Of a stretch of DNA of 46,396 nt, positions 34,871 through 38,260 are shown piece by piece. The number at the start of each line of letters is the position of its first letter. Within the stretch, counting starts at the first letter, position 1. The notes under the pieces were generated by a model that ran no database searches, was not told the DNA's origin, and saw nothing but the letters and a program-made list of their open reading frames with translations. Origin of the DNA: Actinophytocola xanthii (GTDB taxonomy: Bacteria > Actinomycetota > Actinomycetes > Mycobacteriales > Pseudonocardiaceae); assembly GCF_001921205.1 (NCBI RefSeq), contig NZ_MSIE01000038.1, positions 1-46,396 of the forward strand, read 5' to 3'. A program made the position numbers and the translations under genes.

Positions 34871-36775
34871 TCAGGCGTCGCGGGACTTCTCGCGGGAGCG
34901 CGCCCTGGCGCGCTGGACGCTGTCGAGAATGACCTTGCGGATCCGCACCACGTCCGGCGAGACCTCGACGCACTCGTCGGGTGCGCAGAACTCCAGCGCC
35001 TCCTCGAGCACCAGCCGCCGCGGCCGAGCGAGCCGCTCGAGCTCGTCGCCGGTGGAGGAGCGCATGTTGGTGAGCTTCTTCTCCCGGGTCACGTTCACGT
35101 CGAGGTCCTCGGCACGGGGGTTCTCGCCGACGACCATGCCCTCGTAGACGTCGGCGCCCGGCTCGACGAAGAACGTGCCGCGGTCGGCGAGCTGGAGCAT
35201 CGCGTAGCTGGTGACGGTGCCGGTCCGGTCGGCGACGAGCGAGCCGGAGTGCCGGCCGCGGATCTGGCCGGCCCAGGGGAAGTAGCCCTCGAAGATGGCG
35301 TTGGCGATGCCAGTGCCCCTGGTCTCGGTGAGGAAGTCGGTGCGGAAGCCGATCAGGCCGCGCGAGGGGACCACGTACTCGACCTTGACCCGGCCGGTTC
35401 CGTGCCCGCCCATGTGCTCCAGCCGGCCCTTGCGGGCGGCCAGCAGCTGGGTGACCGCGCCGAGGTGCTCCTCGGGGACGTCCACGGTGAGCCGCTCGAA
35501 GGGCTCGCAGAGGGTGCCGTCGACCGTGCGGGTGACGACCTCGGGGCGGCCGACGGTGAGCTCGAAGCCCTCCCGGCGCATGGTCTCGACCAGGATCGCG
35601 AGCGCCAGCTCGCCACGGCCCTGGACCTCCCAGGTGTCCGGCCGCTCGGTGGGCAGCACGCGCACTGACACGTTGCCGATCAGCTCGGCGTCCAGCCGGT
35701 TCTTCAGCAGCCGCGCGGTCAGCTTCTTGCCGCCGCCCCGGCCGGCGAGCGGCGAGGTGTTCACGCCGATCGTGACCGAGATCGCCGGCTCGTCGACGCT
35801 GATCCGCGGCAGCGGCTGAGGGTCGTCGGGGTCGGCGAGCGTGTCGCCGATCGTGATGTCCGGGATGCCGGCGATGGCGACGATGTCACCGGCCTCGGCG
35901 CGCTGGGCCGGCATGCGCTCGAGTGCCTCGGTGAGCAGCAGCTCGGTGATGCGGACCGAGGTGACGCTGCCGTCGGCACGGCACCAGGCCACCGTCTGGC
36001 CCTTGCGGATGGTGCCGGCGTGCACCCGGCACAGCGCGATCCGGCCGAGGAAGCTGGAGGCGTCCAGGTTGGTGACCAGCGCCCGCAGCGGGGCCTCGGG
36101 GTCGCCCGACGGCGGTGGCACGTGCTCGAGAAGGGTGTCGAACAGCGGGTCGAGCGTGTCGTTGTCGGGCAGCCCGCCGTCCGCGGGCTGGGTGAGGCTC
36201 GCGCGGCCCGCGCGGGCCGAGGCGTAGACGACCGGCAGGTCGAGGATGTTGGCGTCGAGGTGGTCGAGCTCGGTGGCCAGGTCGAGGAGCAGGTCGTGGG
36301 TCTCGGAGACGACCTCGGCGATCCGCGCGTCGGCCCGGTCGACCTTGTTCACCACCAGTACCACCGGCAGCCCGGCGGCCAGCGTCTTGCGCAGCACGAA
36401 GCGGGTCTGTGGCAGCGGTCCCTCGCTCGCGTCGACGAGCAGCAGCACGCCGTCCACCATGGACAGCCCGCGCTCGACCTCGCCGCCGAAGTCCGCGTGG
36501 CCTGGGGTGTCGATCACGTTGATGGTGATCGGCCCGGTGGGGGTCTCCCGGCGGACGGCGGTGTTCTTGGCGAGGATGGTGATGCCCTTCTCCCGCTCGA
36601 GCTCACCGGAGTCCATCACGCGGTCGACCGGCTCCGCCCTGGCCGAGAAGGCCCCGGACTGGCGGAGCATGGCGTCGACAAGGGTGGTCTTACCGTGGTC
36701 GACGTGCGCGACGATCGCGACGTTGCGGAGGTCGGTCCTGGCGATCGCAGGCGCCCCGGTATCGGTGGCAGGCAC
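34871..36775 (-). CDS. typA: Ribosome-associated GTPase TypA/BipA
   Basis: Translational GTPase of 634 residues that binds the ribosome and aids assembly or translation under stress and cold. G1 AHVDHGKTTLVDAM, the switch I region with EREKGITILAKN, G3 DTPGHADFGGEVERG, G4 VNKVDRAD and G5 YASARAG are present, then EF-G-like domains II, III and V and the TypA C-terminal domain (MRSSTGDELERLARPRRLVLEEALEF). GTG 36775 has AGGAG at about nine bases. It is read away from the small Cys-rich gene. Confidence 0.96.
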   Translation of the reverse strand: MPATDTGAPAIARTDLRNVAIVAHVDHGKTTLVDAMLRQSGAFSARAEPVDRVMDSGELEREKGITILAKNTAVRRETPTGPITINVIDTPGHADFGGEVERGLSMVDGVLLLVDASEGPLPQTRFVLRKTLAAGLPVVLVVNKVDRADARIAEVVSETHDLLLDLATELDHLDANILDLPVVYASARAGRASLTQPADGGLPDNDTLDPLFDTLLEHVPPPSGDPEAPLRALVTNLDASSFLGRIALCRVHAGTIRKGQTVAWCRADGSVTSVRITELLLTEALERMPAQRAEAGDIVAIAGIPDITIGDTLADPDDPQPLPRISVDEPAISVTIGVNTSPLAGRGGGKKLTARLLKNRLDAELIGNVSVRVLPTERPDTWEVQGRGELALAILVETMRREGFELTVGRPEVVTRTVDGTLCEPFERLTVDVPEEHLGAVTQLLAARKGRLEHMGGHGTGRVKVEYVVPSRGLIGFRTDFLTETRGTGIANAIFEGYFPWAGQIRGRHSGSLVADRTGTVTSYAMLQLADRGTFFVEPGADVYEGMVVGENPRAEDLDVNVTREKKLTNMRSSTGDELERLARPRRLVLEEALEFCAPDECVEVSPDVVRIRKVILDSVQRARARSREKSRDA

Positions 36776-36936
36776 GCACGTGCTCCTGTTTCATGGCTTG
36801 GCTGTTACGCGAACGGCATCGTTGGTTGCGCGCGGAGACGGTGTGGTCGCGGCGCGTCCAGGATAGCTGCCGCGGGTGGCGCCCCGAGGGAAGTGCAGCC
36901 TAACCTTAGGTCTCCCGGAACGAGTTGGAGTGCAGG
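36776..36936. promoter_or_regulatory. Divergent promoter region of typA and the Cys-rich gene
   Basis: A 161-bp spacer between divergent genes. It contains the short inverted repeat CCTAA-CC-TTAGG at 36900-36911, close to the start of the plus-strand gene. No convincing -35/-10 pairs can be fixed by eye. Confidence 0.35.
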
Positions 36937-37113
36937 TTGGGCAAGAAGAAGGGCCCCAAGTCCCCCGCGGACAAGGTGCGCAAGCTGATGAAGGCCGGCA
37001 AGGTCAAGAAGAAGTGCTGCCGGTCCTCCTCCCGGTGCAAGCGATGCCCGGTTCTCGCCCTCAAGAAGGCGAAGGCCAAGGCCAGCAAGGCCGAACTCGG
37101 CAAGGCCGCCTGA
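36937..37113 (+). CDS. Small Lys- and Cys-rich conserved protein
   Basis: A 58-residue basic protein, GKKKGPKSPADKVRKLMKAG, then a Cys-rich centre KKCCRSSSRCKRCPV with CC-x5-C-x2-C spacing, and a Lys/Ala tail. The four closely spaced Cys suggest a metal site; the charge suggests nucleic-acid or ribosome binding. I recall similar short MGKKxxKSPADKVR proteins in actinobacteria without a defined function. TTG 36937 is the likely start, with GGAG at six bases (36927-36930); TTG 36925 is an alternative. It ends 15 bp before the trpS leader peptide, so the two may share a transcript. Confidence 0.75.
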   Translation: MGKKKGPKSPADKVRKLMKAGKVKKKCCRSSSRCKRCPVLALKKAKAKASKAELGKAA

Positions 37114-37128
37114 TGCGGAGCCGCTAGG

Positions 37129-37188
37129 ATGAACCTCATGCGTGATCTCAGCCACCTCCGCTGGTGGGCCGTCGACCGGCGGCCCTGA
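37129..37188 (+). CDS. trpS leader peptide with tandem Trp codons
   Basis: ATG 37129 encodes the 19-residue MNLMRDLSHLRWWAVDRRP, ending at TGA 37186-37188. GGAG lies eight bases upstream (37117-37120). The two consecutive Trp codons (37162-37167) are very rare in a peptide this short and sit immediately before the first hairpin of the attenuator. It is a sensor of charged tRNA-Trp, not a functional peptide. An internal ATG at 37138 would give 16 residues. Confidence 0.85.
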   Translation: MNLMRDLSHLRWWAVDRRP

Positions 37189-37236
37189 CACGCGCACGTT
37201 TCCCAGACCAGGCCGCCCGAAGTCGGGCGGCCTTCG
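37166..37236 (+). promoter_or_regulatory. Tryptophan-responsive transcription attenuator of trpS
   Basis: Three mutually exclusive structures are visible. A pause hairpin pairs GGGCCG (37166-37171) with CGGCCC (37180-37185). An antiterminator pairs GGCGGCC (37178-37184) with GGCCGCC (37213-37219), extended by TG/CA across one bulged C. A terminator pairs GGCCGCCCGA (37213-37222) with TCGGGCGGCC (37225-37234), followed by TTCGTC. A ribosome stalled on the Trp codons covers the first arm and frees the antiterminator, so Trp starvation would raise trpS expression. Ribosome-mediated attenuation of an auxiliary trpS is known in Streptomyces. Confidence 0.85.
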
Positions 37237-37282
37237 TCATGCACGGGCCTCCGGGTCGGGCGAGCACCCGAAGGAGGAGCCG

Positions 37283-38260
37283 ATGCCCCGCCTGTCCGCC
37301 ATCACCCCGTCCGGCCCCGCCCATCTCGGCAACTACCTCGGCGCGGTCCGCCGCTGGGCGCGGGAGGGTGCCCCGGGCGACCTCTACTTCGTCAGCGACC
37401 TGCACGGGATGACCGGCGCCTACCACCCCCAGCGGCTGCGCCACCGCACCCGCGAGCTGCTCGCGCTGCTCGTGGCCTCGGGCATCGATCCGGACCGGGT
37501 CTTCGTGCAGTCGGACCTGCTGCCCCAGCTCGGACCGTTGACCTGGGTCCTCGAGTGCACCTGCTCGTTCGGCGAGGCCGCGCGGATGACCCAGTTCAAG
37601 GAGAAGAGCGCGACTCGCGAGCTGGTCGAGACCCCGGTACGGGTGGGGCTGTTCACCTACCCGGTGCTGATGGCGGCGGACATCCTGCTCCAGGGCGCCG
37701 ACGAGGTCCCGGTCGGCGAGGACCAGGCCCAGCACGTCGAGCTGGCACGCGCGCTGGCGAGACGGTTCAACAGCACCTTCGGCGACGCCCTGGTGGTGCC
37801 GCGGGCGGTGACGCCCCCGGCGGCGGCGCGGGTCAGGGACCTGTCCGACCCGGCCAGGAAGATGGACAAGTCGGCCGTGGACGCGGCCGGGGTGCTGTTC
37901 GTCATGGACGAGCCGGACCTGCTCCGCCGCAAGGTGCGCCGGGCGGTGACCGACGGCCTGGGGCGGGTGGAGTACCGGCCGGCCGAGCAGCCCGGCGTGG
38001 CCAACCTGCTGGAGGTCCTGGCCGCCTGCACCGGTCGTGACGTCCGCGAGATCGCCGAGGGGTTCAGCTCCTACGGCCGGCTGAAGGAGGCGGTCGCCGA
38101 GGCGGTGGTCGAGGAGCTGCGGCCGGTCCGCGAACGCACCCGCGAGCTGCTCGACGACCAGCCCGAACTCGACCGGGTACGCCGGCGCGGCGCCGAGCTC
38201 GCCTCCGAGCGCGGCGCCCACCGGTTGTCGACCGTGCTCCGGCTGGCCGGCGTGGGGTGA
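37283..38260 (+). CDS. trpS: Tryptophanyl-tRNA synthetase
   Basis: Class Ic aminoacyl-tRNA synthetase of 325 residues that charges tRNA-Trp. The HIGH-type motif is PSGPAHLGNYLGAVRRW near the N terminus, followed by LLPQLGPLTWVLECTCSFGEAARMTQFKEKS, VGEDQAQHVELARALARRFN and a KMSKS-type loop reading ARKMDKSAVD. ATG 37283 has AAGGAGGAG about four bases upstream. The attenuator upstream suggests an inducible, possibly auxiliary, enzyme such as the indolmycin-resistant type of Streptomyces; whether a second trpS exists cannot be seen here. Confidence 0.95.
   Translation: MPRLSAITPSGPAHLGNYLGAVRRWAREGAPGDLYFVSDLHGMTGAYHPQRLRHRTRELLALLVASGIDPDRVFVQSDLLPQLGPLTWVLECTCSFGEAARMTQFKEKSATRELVETPVRVGLFTYPVLMAADILLQGADEVPVGEDQAQHVELARALARRFNSTFGDALVVPRAVTPPAAARVRDLSDPARKMDKSAVDAAGVLFVMDEPDLLRRKVRRAVTDGLGRVEYRPAEQPGVANLLEVLAACTGRDVREIAEGFSSYGRLKEAVAEAVVEELRPVRERTRELLDDQPELDRVRRRGAELASERGAHRLSTVLRLAGVG

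Follow-up and report, generated by a model that had tools for sequence, protein, structure and literature searches.

A tryptophan attenuator in front of an auxiliary trpS gene of Actinophytocola xanthii is conserved among Pseudonocardiaceae

Introduction

A short open reading frame with two adjacent Trp codons lies in front of a trpS gene of Actinophytocola xanthii. The locus raises two questions: whether this frame belongs to an attenuator that governs trpS, and whether the small Lys/Cys-rich gene that ends just before it is part of the same transcript. An initial annotation of the sequence had proposed the former and considered the latter possible. The analysis of the window, by which we mean the whole stretch of 46,396 nucleotides, and of related loci leads us to a reading that we hold with high confidence: a Trp attenuator governs the auxiliary trpS, its message is probably leaderless, and the Lys/Cys-rich gene is controlled separately. 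The gene order is typA on the minus strand, the Lys/Cys-rich gene, the two-Trp leader, a strong hairpin and trpS, with the following parts:

34871-36775, minus strand: typA/bipA, given for context only, a neighbour that points away (NCBIfam TIGR01394 at 891 bits, cut-off 757.3)
36890-36908, no strand assigned: weak IdeR/DtxR-type box (13 of 19) 5′ of the Lys/Cys-rich gene, context only
36937-37113, plus strand: Lys/Cys-rich gene, 58 aa, TTG start, Shine-Dalgarno-like GGAG at 36927-36930; a neighbour outside the switch
37125-37130, plus strand: -10-like box TAGGAT, 7 nt 5′ of ATG 37138
37138-37188, plus strand: leader frame MRDLSHLRWWAVDRRP-stop, probably leaderless; alternative start at 37129
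37162-37167, plus strand: tandem Trp codons, TGG TGG
37166-37185, plus strand: pause hairpin 1:2 (37166-37173 with 37178-37185), from folding
37178-37218, plus strand: antiterminator 2:3 (37178-37184 with 37212-37218), from its conservation and the duplex energy
37211-37234, plus strand: terminator hairpin 3:4 (37211-37220 with 37225-37234), without U-tract
37270-37279, plus strand: Shine-Dalgarno-like GAAGGAGGAG of trpS
37283-38260, plus strand: auxiliary trpS, 325 aa (TIGR00233 above cut-off; tree)

No Rfam family scored above its cut-off anywhere in the window, and the eight sub-threshold matches in the leader region all belonged to unrelated families. A scan of 36780-37400 for consensus promoters and terminators returned none of either.

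Results

The Trp leader is conserved and probably leaderless

We sampled 150 Pseudonocardiaceae genomes evenly from a larger group. A trpS of the auxiliary type (at least 59% identity over the match) is carried by 75 of them, A. xanthii counted. We read the loci of all 75, of the six next-best copies and of further copies taken as housekeeping; L002, which repeats L003, was dropped. An in-frame Trp leader was found 5′ of all 75 auxiliary-type genes and of five of the six next in score (L079-L083; not L078), its stop codon lying 79 to 145 nt 5′ of the start of the trpS match in these 80 loci. Two adjacent Trp codons are present in 71 leaders and a single one in nine. The single-Trp leaders (L027, L052, L061, L062, L067 and L073-L076) read CGG or CAG at the second codon, with the remainder conserved.

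The frame from ATG 37129 to TGA 37186-37188 encodes MNLMRDLSHLRWWAVDRRP, and the 19-residue peptide with tandem Trp codons that had been proposed from it stood as far as the frame and the codons are concerned. Its start, however, probably moves to ATG 37138, leaving 16 residues: ATG 37129 overlaps the -10-like box TAGGAT. A TAnnnT box is located 6 to 8 nt 5′ of an in-frame leader ATG or GTG in 77 of the 80 loci, the exceptions being L056, L057 and L059, as compared with 42 of 8374 for the same spacing at other ATG or GTG codons of these loci and 3 of 388 upstream of trpS (0.5-0.8%). Each leader offered between one and five candidate starts, and the box decided between them; so small a choice does not explain the 77 boxed starts. 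A Shine-Dalgarno-like sequence precedes the leader at 10 of 77 loci. The -35 element is loosely kept (at least 4 of 6 positions matched in 30 of 77 loci, against about 8% at random places), and is poor in A. xanthii, with 2 of 6. The spacing of the -10 box, 6 to 8 nt before the start codon, thus suggests that the leader transcript is probably leaderless and starts at or next to ATG 37138.

The boxed Trp leader was absent from all 31 housekeeping trpS copies of the family, L078 counted there. Other trpS loci passed the boxed-leader scan in 4 of 113 cases, none of the four with tandem Trp codons. Boxed leaders were also found at seven Streptomyces loci and one Micromonosporaceae locus; these eight of eight are no independent count, since the loci were labelled by that leader. 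At the Streptomyces copy L224, which is absent from the tree described below and is matched only from residue 34 onward, no boxed leader was found.

Folding and conservation of the three hairpins

The initial annotation had placed a pause hairpin on the second Trp codon, an antiterminator pairing between 37178-37187 and 37211-37219, and a terminator at 37213-37234. We recovered all three as mutually exclusive helices, with covariation in the terminator only: the pause hairpin opens on the second Trp codon, the core of the antiterminator was confirmed, and the terminator-like hairpin is present with the extent given above. The latter has a folding energy of -25.9 kcal/mol (z -5.7), as good as none of 200 shuffles and none of 100 in a second test, and it outdoes its shuffles in 78 of the 80 loci. 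Among 57 non-redundant sequences 96.6% of its cells are paired and four of its nine pairs change on both sides, a covariation score reached by none of 500 shuffles (which ignore relatedness).

The 2:3 duplex, at -18.0 kcal/mol, is only just beyond chance (p 0.038 in a comparison with random segments taken from the A. xanthii locus). Of the 80 loci, 58 attain p 0.05 in this comparison, which used a segment 2 of fixed extent because some leaders stop earlier. In the 57 sequences 98.5% of its cells are paired and it is nearly invariant; no pair changes on both sides, hence there is no covariation, and it is conservation that argues for this pairing. The pause hairpin has 88.0% of its cells paired and one pair that changes on both sides, a covariation not beyond shuffles. 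The segment 37150-37222, which spans the 2:3 pairing, folds no better than its shuffles (z -0.18). Folding of the whole stretch from the leader stop to trpS was discarded as too noisy (z < -2 in 30 of 80 loci and in 2 of 31 controls).

No U-tract follows the A. xanthii terminator hairpin, whose tail reads TCGTCATGC. Five or more T in the nine bases after the hairpin are present at 27 of the 80 loci, and fewer than five at the other 53, A. xanthii among them. This would favor a reading in which the hairpin alone does not stop transcription and the leader works through Rho or through trpS translation, and the trpL2 leader of S. lividans is likewise without a uridine-rich stretch according to the excerpted text of PMC8079986. 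We consider that reading unlikely, because the hairpin is both strong and covarying and leaves the Shine-Dalgarno sequence of trpS uncovered. Furthermore, the G+C-rich actinobacteria often lack U-tracts.

A covariance model of the leader gave 64.2 bits at the A. xanthii locus and at most 26.0 bits elsewhere in its genome. It matched 91 of 197 class genomes at E ≤0.01, many of them weakly. We inspected 29 matched loci beyond A. xanthii, 26 of which have the TAnnnT box: 17 precede trpS (L270 by position) and 12 precede another gene (L267, L268, L271, L272, L274-L276 and L279-L283). That gene is anthranilate-synthase-like in 11 of the 12 by family scans. Nine of the ten scanned match models of anthranilate synthase or related chorismate enzymes below the curated cut-offs, and L282, L283 and pieces of L267 and L268 exceed the Pfam chorismate-binding cut-off; L276, cut by a contig end, gave no match to these models at 1e-20. 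A literature search in one open-licence library returned no report of a Trp attenuator before trpS in Pseudonocardiaceae.

Leader-bearing TrpRS enzymes form one clade

The trpS gene behind the attenuator had been presumed auxiliary, and a second trpS was indeed found in the genome: against TIGR00233 the attenuated copy reaches 241.6 bits, compared with 358.7 bits for its paralogue. Relatives of the A. xanthii auxiliary enzyme occur in Kibdelosporangium, Herbihabitans, Labedaea, Lentzea and Crossiella, Kibdelosporangium and Crossiella being Pseudonocardiaceae. A tree was built from 99 enzymes, namely 27 of the 75, seven from Streptomyces, six distant leader-bearing ones and 59 without the leader label. 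The 40 leader-bearing rows fall together on one side of a branch with support 100/94, and the 59 others stand apart. The leader-bearing TrpRS of Pseudonocardiaceae and Streptomyces are therefore one clade, apart from the housekeeping TrpRS.

Three residues of the Bs enzyme, H43, D132 and Q147, are linked to indolmycin binding in the excerpted text of PMC4899734. The corresponding His, Asp and Gln are kept in the A. xanthii enzyme and in all 40 leader-bearing rows, and an H43N-type change is absent from the A. xanthii auxiliary TrpRS. The place of Gln9, a residue to which a role is ascribed, was set by where the match to 1i6k begins; it is occupied by Thr in 21 of the 27 family rows, by Lys in six of the seven Streptomyces rows and by Gln in 56 of the 59 others. 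This replacement would be compatible with indolmycin resistance. The attenuated Streptomyces type is called indolmycin-resistant in reviews (excerpts of PMC6804068 and PMC9437257). The A. xanthii auxiliary TrpRS is thus a candidate for drug tolerance on its kinship. The KMSKS motif of this enzyme reads KMDKS (residues 193-197); the place of the Asp is Ala, Ser, Asp or Gly across the leader-bearing rows and Ser in 59 of the 59 others.

The upstream Lys/Cys-rich gene

Between the stop of the Lys/Cys-rich gene of A. xanthii and the leader there are 15 bp if ATG 37129 is taken as the leader start, and 24 bp with ATG 37138. The product of the small gene matches no Pfam family, and the best NCBIfam match (E-value 0.093) is far below cut-off. 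The protein is conserved: its K-C-C, S, C and C-P positions do not vary among 28 sequences. The core of the protein resembles KCCRSKPRCKKCPVLAL, and the gene adjoins typA. The gene family was matched in 34 of 197 class genomes. A box of the IdeR/DtxR type, whose consensus is in print (excerpt of PMC8464063), was scored with a threshold of 13 of 19, reached by 4.8% of random segments. Of 66 places, namely the 65 loci with the gene and a repeat of the A. xanthii locus, 63 had enough upstream sequence. The box was found at 57 of these, or at 56 of 62 without the repeat, these 62 loci being related and not independent cases; the score fell below 13 at L023, L051, L055, L056, L057 and L059. Outside the family, with 11 of 29 loci set aside for want of the core motif, five of 18 had the box, against 3.3% of random segments. 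The protein is therefore a candidate iron-regulated protein, as judged from its upstream sequence.

It had been suggested that the trpS transcript carries this gene as well. In that case the two genes would form one operon, with a leader start at ATG 37129, a shared signal and transcription from upstream. The short gap and the poor -35 of the leader in A. xanthii are in its favor, as is the presence of the gene upstream on the same strand within 1.5 kb at 65 of the 80 loci, which is a minimum since the sequence stretches end at 1.5 kb. Close linkage, however, is not conserved: only 13 of the 65 loci, A. xanthii among them, have the gene at 100 bp or less from the leader, and in the other 52 the distance is 347 to 1243 bp. 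A conserved -10-like box that serves the leader lies between the two genes, the small gene has its own iron-type box, and ATG 37129 overlaps the -10-like box. In the same genus, L005 has typA adjoining the trpS leader with no small gene between, and L006 is without the small gene within 1.5 kb. Furthermore, an antisense YciI-type frame of about 100 residues is situated upstream of the leader in six of seven loci inspected (L024, L044, L045, L061, L073 and L077; not L034); four of five scanned frames passed the Pfam YciI cut-off, which L073 fails. We regard a common operon as quite unlikely and the suggestion of a shared transcript as not borne out; separate control of the two genes is the reading that we retain. 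For A. xanthii only, given the 24-bp gap, the weak iron box and the poor -35 of trpS, transcription that starts under IdeR control at the small gene might continue into the attenuator and place trpS under both iron and tRNA-Trp-charging control, which we regard as a long shot.

Discussion

The attenuator in front of the auxiliary trpS appears to sense the availability of charged tRNA-Trp. From the conserved spacing of the box, the message would begin at ATG 37138 or right beside it, with the leader peptide as its first coding sequence. When charged tRNA-Trp is plentiful, the ribosome would pass both Trp codons and reach the stop codon that ends segment 2; segments 3 and 4 would then pair, and transcription would end before trpS. 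If charging drops, because Trp is short or because a Trp mimic inhibits the housekeeping enzyme, the ribosome would stall at UGG UGG and cover segment 1; segment 2 would then pair with segment 3, and the polymerase would continue into trpS. The analysis establishes the parts and how well they are kept, whereas the start site, the stalling, the termination and the induction are what we infer for A. xanthii trpS from the mechanism as it is known elsewhere. A reading in which trpS is chiefly under the WblC/WhiB7 antibiotic response, with the attenuator secondary, would find a precedent in S. coelicolor, where trpS SCO3334 is WblC-activated and its paralogue SCO4839 is not (excerpt of PMC7157823); we regard it as very unlikely. 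The GAAAWY site was seen in the predicted position in none of the 77 family loci, a result that says little since it was also missing from the eight Streptomyces-type loci and there was no working positive control.

The attenuated auxiliary TrpRS is not confined to Streptomyces, half of the sampled Pseudonocardiaceae genomes having one, and the leader and the enzyme travel as one clade. The single-Trp leaders are natural variants for the question of the minimum number of regulatory codons, and the Pseudonocardiaceae set offers a group in which to ask about tolerance to Trp-mimicking antibiotics.

The idea that an auxiliary trpS is attenuated here in the Streptomyces manner is strengthened by comparison with published systems (excerpts of PMC1262725 and PMC8079986) and by the second trpS in the genome. 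S. lividans trpL2, which precedes trpS, is leaderless and contains a Trp codon according to the RNA-seq excerpted in PMC8079986. Like A. xanthii, S. lividans trpL2-trpS and S. avermitilis trpS2 have a short Trp leader and alternative hairpins in the excerpted descriptions. Neither trpL2 nor the A. xanthii attenuator has a U-tract in these sources, so that the missing U-tract does not set A. xanthii apart from the Streptomyces group. They differ in that trpL2, as printed in the excerpt, has one Trp codon (MMTRTCTQLWRAA) and stops before segment 2, whereas the A. xanthii leader has two and translates on through segment 2. Among the Streptomyces trpS copies found here, a leader such as MTTRTCTQLWWAA starts 7 nt downstream of a TAnnnT box, and the enzymes are about 48-55% identical to that of A. 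xanthii.

The A. xanthii leader model also matches the trpE attenuator of Streptomyces and other actinomycetes (trpL1); leaders of this type are boxed and read WW or WWW, but precede an anthranilate-synthase-like gene whereas the A. xanthii leader precedes trpS. The indolmycin-resistant auxiliary TrpRS of Streptomyces (TrpRS1; SGR_3809) would be kin of the A. xanthii TrpRS through its clade with the attenuated Streptomyces copies, a clade that presumably includes them by leader likeness, their own sequences lying outside the tree. On the side of differences, the A. xanthii TrpRS retains the residues equivalent to H43, D132 and Q147 of Bs. The attenuator is genuine and of a kind already known from Streptomyces; the A. 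xanthii locus hence adds a well-conserved member to that kind and does not establish another.
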